A DNA stretch of 64,000 nucleotides from Sulfurivirga caldicuralii (lineage in GTDB: Bacteria > Pseudomonadota > Gammaproteobacteria > Thiomicrospirales > Thiomicrospiraceae). Under the pieces are notes generated by a model. It made no database searches, was not told the DNA's origin, and saw only the letters and a program-made list of their open reading frames with translations. Below, piece after piece: positions 483-55,954 of the stretch; the first letter of the stretch is position 1, and the number at the start of each line of letters is the position of its first letter. Made by a program: the position numbers and the translations under genes. The DNA is taken from contig NZ_FSRE01000001.1 of the NCBI RefSeq assembly GCF_900141795.1, positions 496,001 to 560,000 on the forward strand, written 5' to 3'.

Positions 483-1291
483 AAACGCGCATTGTTTCCG
501 CCATCGTCATGATCGCTGTGCTGGCAGCTGTCCTTTTCTGGAGCAGTGCGCGCATCTGGCAATGGGCCACTGTCGCGCTGGTGCTGCTGGCAGCCTGGGA
601 GTGGGCACGCCTTGCCGGTCTGGTTAAGCCATGGACCCAGTGGAGCTATGCGCTGGTCATTGCAGCCATGACGGCATGGGGCATGCATCAGGATGTCAGC
701 GATGCACTGCCGCGCTGGCTGACGCTGCTGTGGCTGTTCGTCATTCCGTTCATTCTGTATCAGTACGCCCGTAGCGAAGGGCGTTGGCATTTCAAGTCGC
801 CACTGCCCTTGCTGCTGCTGGGGTTTGTCGTGCTGTTTCCCTTTGCCTGGGCCCTGTTTCATGCGTTGCTGCGTTTCGGCCCGGAGGTGGTGCTGTGGTG
901 GATGGTGCTGGTGTGGCTTGCTGACAGTGGCGCCTATTTTGCCGGCCGGGCGCTGGGGCGGCGCAAGCTGGCCCCTGCAATCAGCCCCGGCAAGACGTGG
1001 GAAGGTGTGATCGGTGGGGCGACTGCTGCCCTGCTGGGCGCGTGGCTGGGTGCCTGGTGGCTCGCGCAGAAAGGGGTCCCCGACTTTTTCAATGGCCCGT
1101 TTTTCTGGCTCGGCCTGATTGCGGCCTTTTCTGTGATTGGCGACCTGTTTGAGAGTGTCTTGAAGCGTTGGGCCGGCATGAAGGACAGCAGTCAGCTGAT
1201 CCCGGGGCACGGTGGTGTGCTGGACCGCATCGACAGCCTGCTGTTTGCGCTGCCGTGGATGTGGGTGGTGGCCATGGAGTCCGTGGCATGA
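476..1291 (+). CDS. cdsA: Phosphatidate cytidylyltransferase (CDP-diglyceride synthase)
   Basis: Makes CDP-diacylglycerol from CTP and phosphatidate, the entry point of phospholipid synthesis, in the inner membrane. The 271-residue product is a multi-pass membrane protein and ends with the CdsA signature region (GDLFESVLKR, then KDSSQLIPGHGGVLDRIDS). It overlaps uppS upstream and rseP downstream by 3 nt (ATGA). No dxr lies between cdsA and rseP, unlike the Pseudomonas order. At 1073-1091 the coding sequence contains a copy of the dispersed GGGGTCCCCGACTTTTTC repeat, read in frame as GVPDFFN in a loop between membrane segments just before the signature. The rest of the protein is intact, so I expect it to be functional. 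Confidence 0.95.
   Translation: MLKTRIVSAIVMIAVLAAVLFWSSARIWQWATVALVLLAAWEWARLAGLVKPWTQWSYALVIAAMTAWGMHQDVSDALPRWLTLLWLFVIPFILYQYARSEGRWHFKSPLPLLLLGFVVLFPFAWALFHALLRFGPEVVLWWMVLVWLADSGAYFAGRALGRRKLAPAISPGKTWEGVIGGATAALLGAWLGAWWLAQKGVPDFFNGPFFWLGLIAAFSVIGDLFESVLKRWAGMKDSSQLIPGHGGVLDRIDSLLFALPWMWVVAMESVA
1073..1091 (-). repeat. Dispersed 20-bp repeat, copy 1 (inside cdsA)
   Basis: The plus strand reads GGGGTCCCCGACTTTTTCA, the reverse complement of the unit GAAAAAGTCGGGGACCCC also found at 15069, 23258, 33901, 38257, 55557 and 55598. Here it is in frame in cdsA and codes GVPDFF. Orientation is given relative to the GAAAAAGTCGGGG form. Confidence 0.8.
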
Positions 1292-13142: not shown

Positions 13143-14393
13143 ATGAACAATCTCCCCTACGAGCTGCAGCTGGGCATTCGCTATACCCGTGCCAAACGCC
13201 GTAACGGCTTTATTTCCTTCATGTCCTTTTCCTCCATGGCCGGCATCGCGCTGGGGGTGATGGCGCTGATCGTGGTGATGTCGGTCATGAATGGCTTTCA
13301 GGTGGAGCTGCGAGAGCGTATCCTCAGCATGACGGCACACATGCAGATCACCGGCTACGATCAGCGTCTGCGCAATTGGAAAAAGGTCTATGAGGCGGTG
13401 CAGGATGTGCCCCATGTGGTGGGGGCGGCGCCGCTTATCAAGGAGCAGAGCATGCTGGCGTTCGGTCGTAATGTGACCGGTGCCATGCTGTGGGGGGTGG
13501 ATCCCGCCTATGAAAATCAGGTGGCAAAACTGGATGCAGCCATTGAGGATGGTTCGCTGAAGGAACTCAATGGTCATCGATATGGCATCTACCTGGGCAA
13601 GGATCTGGCGGAAAAGCTGGGCGTACGCAAGGGAGACAAGGTGACCGTCATCGCGCCCGAGGCCAGCGCCACGCTGCTGGGCGTGATGCCGCGCTTCAAG
13701 CGCTTTACTGTACTGGGTACCTTTTCCGTGGGCATGTACGAATACGATGTGGGTCTGGCGGTGGTGCATATCCGGGATGCGGCCAAGATATTCCGTTATG
13801 GTGATGCGGTCTCCAGTCTGGTGCTCAAGCTGGATGACCTGTTTGCCATTCAGCCGGTACGCGATGCCCTGGCGCAACGTCTGGACGACACCCTCTATGT
13901 GGTGGACTGGACGCAGCAGCACCGCAACTTTTTCAAGGCCGTGCAGATGGAAAAGCGCATGATGTTTCTGGTGCTGGCGCTGATCATCATGGTGGCCGCT
14001 TTCAATATTGTCTCCATGATGGTCATGGTGGTGACCGACAAGCAGAGTGACATCGCCGTATTGCGTACACTGGGGGCGACGCCGCTGAGTATTCAGTTCA
14101 TGTTCATGGTGCAGGGACTGATTATTGGGACCGCCGGCACCCTGCTGGGCATTGTTTTGGGTGTGGCGCTGGCCCTCAACCTGGATGTGGTGGTGCCGTG
14201 GATCGAGCGGACCTTTGGCTTCCACTTCTTCCCGCCGGACGTCTATTACATCAGCGAAGTGCCTTCAAAACTGGCGTGGACCGACGTGGAAGGCGTGGCG
14301 CTGCTGGCGTTTGCGCTGACGCTGCTGGCGACGCTCTATCCCAGTTGGCGGGCCGCACGCATTCAACCGGCGGAGGCGTTGCGCTATGAATAA
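13143..14393 (+). CDS. lolC: Lipoprotein-releasing ABC transporter permease (LolC/LolE/LolF type)
   Basis: Permease of the Lol exporter that extracts mature outer-membrane lipoproteins from the inner membrane and passes them to LolA. The 416-residue product shows the MacB/FtsX-type plan: one membrane helix near residue 30, a large periplasmic domain (about 50-270), then three helices (about 270-405) ending in the coupling motif [14 protein letters not shown]. Only this one permease lies with lolD, and no second permease follows as in lolCDE. The subunit may therefore act as a homodimer (LolF type), which I infer only from context. Confidence 0.92.
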
Positions 14394-15069
14394 CCGTGTG
14401 CTTGAAGGGCGCAATCTGGTCAAGACCTATCGCGATGGTCCAGCAGAGACGCCGGTGTTAAAAGGCGTTTCCCTGATCCTGCATCGCCGTGAGCGGGTGG
14501 CCATCGTGGGCAGTTCCGGCTCCGGCAAGAGCACACTGCTGCACCTGCTGGGAGGGCTGGATCGGCCCACAGACGGCGAGGTGCTGTTATTGGGACAGCC
14601 GTTTTCCAAGTTGGGGGAGGCCGCCCGCGGGCGGCTGCGCAACCGCCACATGGGCTTCGTATATCAGTTTCACCATCTGCTGCCTGAGCTGACGGCAGAA
14701 GAAAACGTGATGATGCCGTTGCTGATCCGCCGTGAATCCGAGGCGACGGCGCGCGACAAGGCCCTTGCGCTGCTGGATGCCGTAGGGCTGAGTCGTCGCA
14801 CGGCGCACAAGCCGTCCGAGCTCTCCGGCGGTGAACGTCAGCGGGTGGCGCTGGCGCGGGCGTTGGTGACCGAGCCGGACTGCGTGCTGGCGGATGAGCC
14901 CACCGGCAATCTGGACAGCCGTTCAGCCGAGCAGGTGTTGAGTCTGATGGACGACCTTAATCAGCGCTTTGGCACCGCGCTGCTTGTCGTCACCCACGAT
15001 GTCAACATTGCGGCGCGAATGGACCGCACGCTGACCCTGCGGGATGGCATGATCAGGGTGGAAGAATAG
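14386..15069 (+). CDS. lolD: Lipoprotein-releasing system ATP-binding protein LolD
   Basis: ABC ATPase that powers lipoprotein release by the LolC-type permease. The 227-residue product has Walker A GSSGSGKS, the Q loop in [16 protein letters not shown], signature LSGGERQR and Walker B CVLADEP. It overlaps the permease gene by 8 nt. Its stop codon TAG (15067-15069) runs directly into a copy of the dispersed GGGGGTCCCCGAC repeat, so the extreme C terminus (MIRVEE) may have been set by that insertion. The protein is otherwise full length. Confidence 0.96.
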
Positions 15070-15087
15070 GGGGGTCCCCGACTTTTT
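15069..15087 (-). repeat. Dispersed 20-bp repeat, copy 2 (at lolD stop)
   Basis: The plus strand reads GGGGGGTCCCCGACTTTTT, starting at the last base of the lolD stop codon. A T-rich GGCG/CGCC hairpin sequence follows at 15091-15110. Confidence 0.8.
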
Positions 15088-21911: not shown

Positions 21912-21928
21912 ACGCGCTCATTGATTGC

Positions 21929-22004
21929 GGGTGCTTAGCTCAGCTGGGAGAGCATCGCCCTTACAAGGCGAGGGTCGCAGGTTCGATCCCTGCAGCACCC
22001 ACCA
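21929..22004 (+). tRNA. tRNA-Val (anticodon TAC), copy 1
   Basis: 76 nt with encoded CCA. The acceptor stem GGGTGCT pairs with AGCACCC, the anticodon loop is CTTACAA, and the T loop GGTTCGATCC is canonical. First of a Val-Asp-Val-Asp array. Confidence 0.97.
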
Positions 22005-22021
22005 CTCAACCAAACCACTGC

Positions 22022-22098
22022 GGAGCGGTAGTTCAGCTGGTTAGAATACCGGCCTGTCACGCCGGGGGTCGCGGGTTCGAGTCCCGTCCGCTCCGCCA
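22022..22098 (+). tRNA. tRNA-Asp (anticodon GTC), copy 1
   Basis: 77 nt with encoded CCA. The acceptor stem GGAGCGG pairs with CCGCTCC with discriminator G, and the anticodon loop is CTGTCAC. Only 17 nt separate it from the Val gene. Confidence 0.97.
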
Positions 22099-22107
22099 TT
22101 ACATTAC

Positions 22108-22183
22108 GGGTGCTTAGCTCAGCTGGGAGAGCATCGCCCTTACAAGGCGAGGGTCGCAGGTTCGATCCCTGCAGCACCCACCA
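22108..22183 (+). tRNA. tRNA-Val (anticodon TAC), copy 2
   Basis: Identical over 76 nt to the copy at 21929, with a different 3' spacer. It arose by duplication of the Val-Asp pair. Confidence 0.97.
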
Positions 22184-22204
22184 CCTCGTTCGAGGCGACA
22201 CTGC

Positions 22205-22281
22205 GGAGCGGTAGTTCAGCTGGTTAGAATACCGGCCTGTCACGCCGGGGGTCGCGGGTTCGAGTCCCGTCCGCTCCGCCA
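22205..22281 (+). tRNA. tRNA-Asp (anticodon GTC), copy 2
   Basis: Identical over 77 nt to the copy at 22022; even the short leader CTGC before it is retained. It lies 13 nt before the uvrC start, so uvrC may share the tRNA transcript. Confidence 0.97.
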
Positions 22282-22294
22282 TCTTCTTCTGCCT

Positions 22295-24100
22295 ATGTCG
22301 TTTGATATCCAAGCCTTTCTCAAGACGTTGCCGGAACGACCGGGCGTTTACCGCATGCTCAATGCCGACGGGCAGATCATCTATGTGGGCAAGGCACGCA
22401 ATCTGAAGCGCCGTGTCAGCAGTTATTTCCAGAAGCAGCACGACAGCCCCAAGACGGCTCGGCTCGTCAGCCAGATTGCCTCCATTGAAGTGACTCTGAC
22501 CGAAACCGAGGCCGAAGCCCTGCTGCTGGAAAGCACGCTCATCAAGCGGCACAATCCCCGCTATAACGTGCTGTTTCGCGACGACAAGTCCTATCCCTAC
22601 ATTTATGTGAATACGAAAGACCGCTATCCCGGCCTTTATTTCCATCGTGGTGCCAAGCGCAAGAAGGGCGCCTACTTCGGGCCGTTTCCCGATGCCGGTG
22701 CTGTGTATCAGACTTTGCACGCCCTGCAGAAGATCTTTCCCGTGCGCCAATGCAGCGACAGTGTGTTTCGCCACCGCAGCCGCCCCTGTCTGCAATACCA
22801 GATTGGGCGCTGCTCCGGACCGTGTGTAGGTCTGGTGTCCGACGAAGAGTATGCGGAGGATGTACGCAATACGCTGCTGTTTCTCGAGGGCAAGAGTTTC
22901 GAAGTGATCGAATACCTCGGCGAGCAGATGCAGCAGGCAGCGTTGGCGCTTGAGTTCGAAAGAGCAGCGCAGCTGCGCGACCGCATTGCCGCCTTGCGTG
23001 CCATACAGAGCCAGTACCTGATCAATCAGCAGGCGGGCGAACTGGACGTGATCGGGCTTGCGGGTCAAGGAGATCAGTATGCCGTGGTGCTGATGCGCTA
23101 TCAGGGGGGGACGCTGTGGGGGTCGCAGACTTTCTACCCCAAGGCGGCCGAAGCCAGCCCAAAAGAGGTTCTGGAAGCCTTTCTGGGACAATATTACGCG
23201 GAACGTACGCGTCCACGCACCATTCTGCTGCCATTTGACCTGGCCGAAAAAAGCTGGTTTGAAAAAGTCGGGGACCCCCCACATCCACGCTTGGGGGTAG
23301 CGCGCACGCGCACGGAAAAGGAGCTGATCAAGCTGGCGGAAACCAATGCCCAGGCTGCGTTGCGTCAGCATCTGACCCAGAAGGCCACGCAGGAGCAGAA
23401 ACTTGCCGCTGTGCAGGCGGTACTTGCGCTGCCACGTCCGCCACAGGTGATGGAGTGCTTTGACATCAGTCACACCCAAGGGCAGGAAACCGTGGGCAGC
23501 TGTGTCTGTTTTCGTGACGGTGTGCCGGACAAGTCACGCTATCGGCGCTACAACGTGGAGGGGATTACCCCCGGGGATGACTATGCGGCCATGGAACAGG
23601 TGCTGCGCCGGCATTACGGCCGGCTCAGGGCGCAGCCGGAACAGCTGCCGGACCTGATTGTCATCGACGGGGGCAAGGGGCAGCTCAATCGCGCACTGGC
23701 GGTGCTGAAGGATCTTGATCTGGATCACCTGCCGCTGGTGAGTGTGGCCAAGGGAGAAGGGCGCAAGGTGGGGCTTGAGGTATTGCATACCCCCTATGAG
23801 GAAGCGGGCATTGATCTGCCGCCGGAAGAACCCGCGCTGCATCTGATCAATTTTCTGCGTGACGAGGCCCACCGCTTTGCCATTACCGGTCATCGCGGCC
23901 GCCGTCAGAAACGCCAGCTGGGCACGCGTCTGGAGGAAATCGAAGGGGTGGGACCCAAACTGCGTCAGCGTCTGCTCACCCACTTCGGCGGCCTCAGGCA
24001 ACTGCAGGATGCCTCCGTGAGTGAACTGGCCAAGGTGAAAGGGGTCAGCCAGCGGCTGGCACAGCGCATTTACGACCATTTCCACGGCGAAATCGAGTAA
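22295..24100 (+). CDS. uvrC: Excinuclease ABC subunit C
   Basis: Nuclease subunit of nucleotide excision repair; makes both incisions around the lesion with UvrB. The 601-residue product has the GIY-YIG domain (RPGVYRMLNADGQIIYVGKARNLK, residues about 15-40), a UVR/UvrB-binding segment near 200-235, the RNase H-like endonuclease domain (MECFDISHTQG, LIVIDGGKGQL) and C-terminal helix-hairpin-helix motifs (IEGVGPKLRQRLL, VKGVSQRLAQ). At about residues 322-329 a copy of the dispersed repeat is read in frame as FEKVGDPP. This replaces or interrupts the less conserved linker before the conserved EKELIKLAETNAQ helix. The catalytic parts are intact. Confidence 0.95.
   Translation: MSFDIQAFLKTLPERPGVYRMLNADGQIIYVGKARNLKRRVSSYFQKQHDSPKTARLVSQIASIEVTLTETEAEALLLESTLIKRHNPRYNVLFRDDKSYPYIYVNTKDRYPGLYFHRGAKRKKGAYFGPFPDAGAVYQTLHALQKIFPVRQCSDSVFRHRSRPCLQYQIGRCSGPCVGLVSDEEYAEDVRNTLLFLEGKSFEVIEYLGEQMQQAALALEFERAAQLRDRIAALRAIQSQYLINQQAGELDVIGLAGQGDQYAVVLMRYQGGTLWGSQTFYPKAAEASPKEVLEAFLGQYYAERTRPRTILLPFDLAEKSWFEKVGDPPHPRLGVARTRTEKELIKLAETNAQAALRQHLTQKATQEQKLAAVQAVLALPRPPQVMECFDISHTQGQETVGSCVCFRDGVPDKSRYRRYNVEGITPGDDYAAMEQVLRRHYGRLRAQPEQLPDLIVIDGGKGQLNRALAVLKDLDLDHLPLVSVAKGEGRKVGLEVLHTPYEEAGIDLPPEEPALHLINFLRDEAHRFAITGHRGRRQKRQLGTRLEEIEGVGPKLRQRLLTHFGGLRQLQDASVSELAKVKGVSQRLAQRIYDHFHGEIE
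23258..23280 (+). repeat. Dispersed 20-bp repeat, copy 3 (inside uvrC)
   Basis: Contains GAAAAAGTCGGGGACCCC preceded by TTT and followed by CC; coded in frame as FEKVGDPP within UvrC. Confidence 0.85.
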
Positions 24101-24108
24101 GATTTTGA

Positions 24109-24379
24109 GGCACCTGCGCAAACCCTCTGAATGCGCTCGCGTTGCTGGCGCGAGGGCAGCAGATTCAAGGCGCACGGGGCAGCCTTTGGTGGCGCTAAAG
24201 GCAGGATGCTCAACGCAGAAGATGCTGCCATCCCGCCGCAACCCGAAGGGACAGGGCGATTCTGGCCTAAGACGGCGTTGCACATCACTCGCACGGAGTG
24301 ACCATGCCACGTTCGTTGCGCCTTGCCTTGAACTGAAATCATCACTGTCGCGGCCGTTCAGAGGTTTTGCGCGGGTGCC
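24109..24379 (+). mobile_element. MITE-like element, copy A (between uvrC and pgsA)
   Basis: A 271-bp non-coding element filling most of the 306-bp uvrC-pgsA gap. The left end GGCACCTGCGCAAACCCTCT and the inverted right end GGCACCCGCGCAAAACCTCT differ at two positions. TGA flanks both sides and could be a 3-bp target duplication. Internal sequence matches the copies at 55626 (same length, same orientation) and 36962 (opposite orientation). No transposase is encoded. Confidence 0.75.
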
Positions 24380-24406
24380 TGAGTTTCCACAGAGGACGTC
24401 GCCATT

Positions 24407-33900: not shown

Positions 33901-33922
33901 TTCAAAAAGTCGGGGACCCCCC
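33901..33922 (+). repeat. Dispersed 20-bp repeat, copy 4 (at thiL start)
   Basis: AAAAAGTCGGGGACCCCCC preceded by TTC; it ends 3 nt before the TTG proposed as thiL start. Confidence 0.82.
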
Positions 33923-33925
33923 TCC

Positions 33926-36961: not shown

Positions 36962-37218
36962 GGCACCTTCGCAAAGCCTCTGAACGGACGCGACAGGGAC
37001 CATTGGTCCATGCGGCCCAGTATGACCGTTGTATCTTCCCTGACTACAGTATGCGTCTGGACCCCTGTTACCCTGTCCCTTCGGGTTGTGACGCAATGAT
37101 GGCATCTTCTTCGTTGAACGCCTTGCCTTTGGCCCCACCAAAGCCTGTGGCGTTCGCCTTGAATCTGTCATCATTGCGCCGGCAACGCGAACGCATTCAG
37201 AGGTTTTGCGAAGGTGTC
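36962..37218 (-). mobile_element. MITE-like element, copy C (inverted)
   Basis: A 257-bp copy of the 24109 element in the opposite orientation, filling the 323-bp space between two divergent genes. Ends are GGCACCTTCGCAAAGCCTCT (left) and, inverted, GACACCTTCGCAAAACCTCT (right). The internal CCCTGTCCCTTCGGGTTG matches the reverse complement of copy A. The following gene starts 34 nt beyond it, so the element may carry or displace promoter signals. Confidence 0.75.
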
Positions 37219-37251
37219 TATTTTAATGTACACACGACAGGAGCGCAGAGG

Positions 37252-38256: not shown

Positions 38257-38280
38257 TTTGAAAAAGTCGGGGACCCCCCC
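38257..38280 (+). repeat. Dispersed 20-bp repeat, copy 5 (between psiE-like gene and recN)
   Basis: GAAAAAGTCGGGGACCCC preceded by TTT and followed by further C residues, in the 84-bp gap between the two minus-strand genes. Confidence 0.85.
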
Positions 38281-55533: not shown

Positions 55534-55556
55534 GGGCTGAAACAGCCCCAATGGAA

Positions 55557-55578
55557 GGGGGTCCCCGACTTTTTTCAA
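55557..55578 (-). repeat. Dispersed 20-bp repeat, copy 6 (left arm of inverted pair)
   Basis: The plus strand reads GGGGGTCCCCGACTTTTTTC, inverted with respect to copy 7 only 19 nt away. Both arms together form a hairpin of about 20 bp. Confidence 0.85.
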
Positions 55579-55597: not shown

Positions 55598-55618
55598 TGA
55601 AAAAGTCGGGGACCCCCC
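55598..55618 (+). repeat. Dispersed 20-bp repeat, copy 7 (right arm of inverted pair)
   Basis: TGAAAAAGTCGGGGACCCCC plus one C, paired with copy 6. It ends 7 nt before the MITE-like copy D. Confidence 0.85.
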
Positions 55619-55625
55619 TGTGTTA

Positions 55626-55896
55626 GGCACCTCCGCAAACCGCTGAATGCGCTCGCGTTGCAGGCGCGATGGCAACAGAAATAGGGCGCGTGTCACAGGG
55701 TTTGGCGGGTTCAAATCCAATACGAGCAACGCAGTAAAGGCTGCCATCCCGCCAGCAACCCACAGGGGCAGGGCGATTTTGGCTCAATGCTGCGTTGCAC
55801 CTCACTGGCATGGAATGATCATGCCACGTTCGCTGCGCCTTGGCTTGAACCAAAATTGCCACTGTCGCGACCGTTCAGAGGTTTTGCGGAGGTGCC
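55626..55896 (+). mobile_element. MITE-like element, copy D
   Basis: 271 bp, the same length as copy A and in the same orientation. The left end GGCACCTCCGCAAACCGCTG matches the inverted right end GGCACCTCCGCAAAACCTCT apart from small changes. Conserved inner blocks are CTGCCATCCCGCC and CATGCCACGTTCG. Together with copies 6 and 7 of the short repeat it fills the 421-bp gap between two converging genes. Confidence 0.78.
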
Positions 55897-55954
55897 TTGG
55901 CGTTTTTATGCCTCTGCCTGGAACGACGGTAGGGATCGTTCCGGCCCCCCGGTA

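Follow-up and report, generated by a model that had tools for sequence, protein, structure and literature searches.

The uvrC gene lies within the window (the whole 64-kb stretch of DNA that was analysed), and all of the Pfam domains expected of its product (UvrC, GIY-YIG, UVR and HHH) were detected. In its frame, the bases at 23258-23281 are TTT GAA AAA GTC GGG GAC CCC CCA, and the ORF translation confirmed what a preliminary description had proposed, that a repeat is read here as FEKVGDPP in a protein that has remained intact. The 17-mer core of this copy had seven exact matches in the window, against 0.01 expected (Table 1).

Table 1. Features of uvrC and of the core copies in the window
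Feature	Position	Strand	Remarks
uvrC CDS	22295..24100	+	601 aa; ORF and Pfam; host of the reported copy
17-mer core of uvrC copy, AAAAAGTCGGGGACCCC	23262-23278	+	reads KVGDPP after FE
20-bp core of uvrC copy, AAAAAGTCGGGGACCCCCCA	23262..23281	+	reads (E)KVGDPP
A-tract AAAAAA of uvrC copy	23247..23252	+	at -15 to -10
Phased A/T region of uvrC copy	23130..23240	+	-132 to -22
Core copy	1070..1089 (17-mer match 1073)	-	antisense within gene; product CdsA-like by eye
Core copy	15068..15087 (17-mer match 15071)	-	overlaps stop codon of gene 14386-15069 (+)
Core copy	33904..33923	+	intergenic
Core copy	38261..38280	+	intergenic
Core copy, half of close inverted pair	55555..55574 (17-mer match 55558)	-	
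Core copy, partner half of inverted pair	55600..55619	+	

Other repeats were found near these sites. Just upstream of uvrC (21924-22282) there was a tandem duplication of two apparent tRNA genes, in which the duplicated units alternate (an 84-nt pair, 100% identical, and an 82-nt pair, 99% identical). A separate repeat family of about 270 bp occurred in the window at 24108-24380, 37071-37219 and 55625-55897, with one of its copies adjoining the inverted core pair 55558/55600. Approximately 18 copies of this family, with roughly 68-90% identity, were present in the genome sequence examined.

When one mismatch was allowed, the core occurred 147 times across the 1.67-Mb Sulfurivirga genome, 81 times on the forward and 66 times on the reverse strand, and the reversed control yielded 0 matches. 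Its sequence was strict: over the approximately 90% of the genome examined for this (83% of C5, 93% of C6, 98% of C7 and less of C3 and C4), 136 copies were exact, 10 had one mismatch and none had two. The density was about one core per 11 kb and the spacing was even. The coefficient of variation of the gaps was 0.64 compared with 0.97 in simulations, none out of 5000 of which was as low, and only 8 gaps were shorter than 3 kb where 33 were expected. Two inverted core pairs, 26 bp apart, were found. Core orientation had no genome-wide bias and did not follow local GC skew (p 0.31); for the latter reason a polar replication motif of the KOPS or Chi kind was rejected. The longest stretch free of cores measured 63.6 kb and, judging by eye, presumably holds the RuBisCO and carboxysome genes, rpoBC, and the S10, spc and alpha ribosomal operons. 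According to provisional gene calls from a simple codon model, with most gene names likewise provisional, 82 out of 140 copies were located at or between gene edges although about 90% of the DNA is coding. The other 58 were fully within genes, 40 of them sense and 18 antisense (p 0.005).

When the 140 copies were aligned on the core, A/T was found at positions -15 to -11 in 89-97% of them. Beyond this tract, A/T-rich positions recurred at intervals of ~10.2 bp as far as about -130 (period 10.24 bp; bootstrap 10.2-10.3), and AA/TT steps were approximately five-fold enriched at the A/T peaks. The phased pattern was absent farther upstream than about -131 and weak on the opposite side of the core. 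Its strength was about the same whether the copies were intergenic or lay within genes, in sense or antisense orientation. The phased region of the uvrC copy correlated with the family pattern at 0.33; the mean correlation was 0.28 across the family and 0.01 in controls. A wedge model gave an estimated median bend of 54 degrees over 120 bp at the sites, compared with 26-29 degrees in controls. None of the 9730 pairs of upstream flanks exceeded 70% identity. The flanks thus share a rhythm without sharing a sequence, which excludes the possibility that the sites are copies of a longer unit or transposed units.

The peptide is not confined to UvrC. KVGDP was read by 33 of the 40 sense genic copies, and at least 33 proteins carry it. 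From a reading of the sequences we take the carriers of KVGDP-type peptides to include PrmC, TilS, DusA, MurE, CoaBC, AnmK, LpdA, YfiH, MutS and MutY. Compared with a genus that has no such system (G011), residues were gained at some of these sites (12 in a KdsB-like, 8 in a TilS-like and 8 in a PrmC-like protein), and at several others there was no net gain. Since UvrC is only one of about 40 proteins bearing the motif on the coding strand, its copy is not a special case of domestication.

Within UvrC, the repeat site was supported as a variable segment of the protein. Relatives that lack the repeat did not have KVGDPP in their UvrC, so the result that the preliminary description had named as a refutation was not obtained. 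The peptide (residues 323-329) lies between the UVR region (208-236) and the endonuclease domain (374-530), as the preliminary description had placed it. However, the segment is not the free linker that was supposed, because these residues fall within PF22920, the RNase H-like domain that Pfam defines for UvrC (residues 250-359). The protein is 3 aa shorter than most of the family members compared and has no net gain at the motif. In the AlphaFold model (mean pLDDT 80.7) the RNase H-like block holding the peptide is of low confidence (pLDDT 57); there the peptide is predicted to close helix 318-325 and turn into strand 332-335. The model fits with a surface loop at this site that tolerates variation.

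Three other Sulfurivirga genomes, all of them drafts, carried comparable sites in two other dialects. Sulfurivirga sp. S141_79 had 157 matches of a different core, AAAAATGGGGGAGACCCCG. A second sister genome (G002) had 69 matches, mostly of the same core AAAAATGGGGGAGACCCCG, and the third (G003) had a looser form, AAAAA..GGGGGACCCC. In an eye count, the S141_79 dialect stood at the position of the motif of the window species in 12 out of 20 genes with a credible ortholog, with a one-base variant in 2 of the 12. The UvrC of S141_79 lacked the motif. In DusA- and PrmC-like genes, the S141_79 dialect also occurred in tandem and in frame, at a spacing of 93 or 102 bp, which is about 9-10 helical turns. 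In the window species, the sequence AAAAGGTCAGAGACCCC at C5:138169 differed from the core by three mismatches, possessed its own A/T tract and was inverted relative to a perfect copy at 138144. It is perhaps a relic of another dialect.

Outside the genus, the window dialect had none or one match per genome in other genera of the family, and a loose G-run/C-run pattern was essentially absent from 369 genomes of the class. An unrelated class member that was an outlier for the loose pattern was rejected, as its palindromic G-run/C-run repeats had different sequences and surroundings. No comparable over-represented words were found in G011, and a further genus of the family (G019) had a different iterated palindrome, ACCAGGCCTGGT, with 66 copies in 200 kb. 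Viral contigs contained no match to the window dialect and four to the S141_79 dialect. A literature search with the motif string returned a single match, a glioma lncRNA paper which by its title and abstract is unrelated.

A partial set of competence and pilus genes was identified in the Sulfurivirga genome. ComEC and DprA were present, together with ComM-like and ComF-like sequences and PilT. An MSHA-type pilus operon at C6:1-11 kb included a secretin, an MshE-like ATPase and a GspF-like protein; the MshL-like secretin scored just under the family cut-off. There were three prepilin matches, none of them a canonical major pilin (PilA). A simple pattern detected no PilQ-like secretin in the sequence examined, but the same weak pattern also missed MshL. 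MSHA pili have, to our knowledge, no established role in DNA uptake. ComEC was apparently absent from two sister genomes, but in S141_79 fragments on two short contig stretches matched ComEC, and this gap is therefore probably due to assembly.

By analogy with the DUS of Neisseria and the USS of Haemophilus, we hold with moderate confidence that the repeat serves Sulfurivirga as a self-marking site throughout its genome and most probably works as a DNA uptake sequence (DUS/USS-like). As their hallmarks, USS and DUS have a strict consensus without bias in orientation, are spaced more regularly than at random, include inverted pairs at close range, are favoured in non-coding DNA and come in variants specific to clades; USS also have A/T tracts on one side (Redfield 2006, PMC1626085). 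The listed hallmarks were all found in the Sulfurivirga core. Also found was the presence of many copies in coding sequences with one orientation preferred in the reading frame, as in USS and DUS. Its density, however, was roughly ten-fold below the one per kb of USS and DUS, and the evidence on whether the sites arose by substitution rather than insertion, as USS do, was mixed, with no gain in UvrC and several other sites and a clear gain in some. The competence machinery also gave a mixed picture: ComEC, DprA, PilT and an MSHA-type secretin fit the uptake reading, and the lack of a canonical PilA among the prepilin matches and of a PilQ in the sequence examined speaks against it.

We infer a receptor, an uptake function and a recombination drive. 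A receptor at the surface or pilus tip would recognise the ~20-bp core. The helically phased A-tracts, which occupy ~100 bp next to it, would bend the DNA in advance and so ease its kinking on passage through the secretin. Preferential uptake and recombination of fragments with a perfect site would keep the copies near-perfect and evenly spaced, and would allow copies to become established in protein loops that tolerate them, such as that of UvrC. A change of receptor would shift the entire genome to a new dialect. The KVGDPP stretch of UvrC is one copy of a species-specific DNA word and, in our reading, not mobile DNA that landed in a gene.

Other readers of these sites can be envisaged. One less probable alternative is an undescribed genome-marking system, consisting of a ~20-bp word, about 100 bp of nucleosome-like phased DNA, a putative DNA-wrapping reader and whole-genome dialect switching, which would serve chromosome organisation or self/non-self discrimination and not uptake. 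The main rival to uptake, likewise less probable, is that a protein which wraps DNA inside the cell, such as gyrase, a nucleoid protein of the Lrp/HU type or a condensin loader, binds the sites and that these, at approximately one per 11 kb, delimit chromosome domains. About ten helically phased A/T tracts beside a specific core do suggest wrapping or curvature, the ~11-kb spacing is even, highly expressed operons lack sites, and E. coli gyrase sites likewise have periodic G/C flanks (PMC6379681). Gyrase itself is weakened as a candidate because the flank is mainly one-sided, extending over ~110 bp and not as two 47-bp arms, and because its period is 10.24 bp, shorter than that of the gyrase motif (10.75 bp); a wrapping protein other than gyrase may be the reader. 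Any such factor would have to account for the near absence of decayed copies, although selection on any single site should be weak where 147 are redundant, and the concerted change of the core between species requires a homogenising process.

The preliminary description had seen in UvrC a mobile sequence turned into protein sequence, a view that the data did not bear out. In its general form the proposal is of a short mobile element (REP/MITE-like or RPE-like), inserted as ~20 bp beside naturally bent DNA and subject to local immunity, of which UvrC received one copy. The net gain of residues at several protein sites, the scarcity of close copies, which could be due to target immunity, and the tandem copies of the sister genome would fit such an element. 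It is nevertheless unlikely, as the flanks of the copies are unrelated, the REP-associated Y1 transposase (PF01797) had no match in the Sulfurivirga genome, neither UvrC nor several other sites show a net insertion, and the sister species has a different dialect at the same positions. Least probable of all, and in our judgement very improbable, is an element acting at the RNA level, for example an intrinsic terminator of short length. On its reverse strand the site does read as GGGG-loop-CCCC followed by TTTTT, the G-run and C-run beside a T tract are kept on that strand in all three dialects, and several copies directly follow stop codons in that direction. However, 58 of the 140 copies lie within genes, and the ~110-bp phased flank and exact conservation are atypical of terminators. 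The arms around the A-tract were not complementary beyond chance; a hairpin around the A-tract at -13 was rejected, its arm complementarity being no higher than in shuffled sequences.

If the sites are uptake sequences, Sulfurivirga would represent a third lineage with its own dialects, and the origin and switching of uptake tags could be tested by comparison. The long phased flank would also offer a way to test what DNA bending contributes to uptake. If the sites are not uptake sequences, they constitute a strict, evenly spaced, dialect-bearing chromosomal site with some other reader. Whichever function holds, dozens of proteins, UvrC among them, carry a peptide imposed by pressure at the DNA level.

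Among known systems, Rickettsia palindromic elements (RPE), which occur between genes as well as in frame within proteins, and REP elements resemble the Sulfurivirga sites in this double placement. Unlike them, the Sulfurivirga sites have flanks that are not copied, no Y1 transposase and dialect-specific cores at shared positions. The E. coli gyrase motif and the Mu strong gyrase site share with the sites a long, helically periodic A/T-G/C pattern, but the gyrase motif has two arms around a cleavage site and no strict core, whereas the Sulfurivirga pattern is mainly one-sided beside an invariant core (PMC6379681).

Uptake sequences have been described, in the literature examined, only for Neisseriaceae and Pasteurellaceae. 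The Sulfurivirga system sits outside these two families and its curved flank is unusually long. The USS of Haemophilus and other Pasteurellaceae are alike in their strict core, one-sided A/T tracts, even spacing, inverted pairs, non-coding preference, many in-frame genic copies and clade-specific variants (PMC1626085; PMC7811141; PMC2346458). They differ in having a core of 9 bp with two A/T tracts at 1 per kb, compared with 20 bp, ~10 tracts and 1 per 11 kb in Sulfurivirga, and USS are said not to be insertions, whereas some Sulfurivirga sites show a net insertion. The DUS of Neisseriaceae are similar in that a conserved dialect is specific to each species and the dialects follow phylogeny (PMC3630211). 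DUS have no A/T flank and thousands of copies, whereas the Sulfurivirga core has a phased A/T flank and 147 copies.
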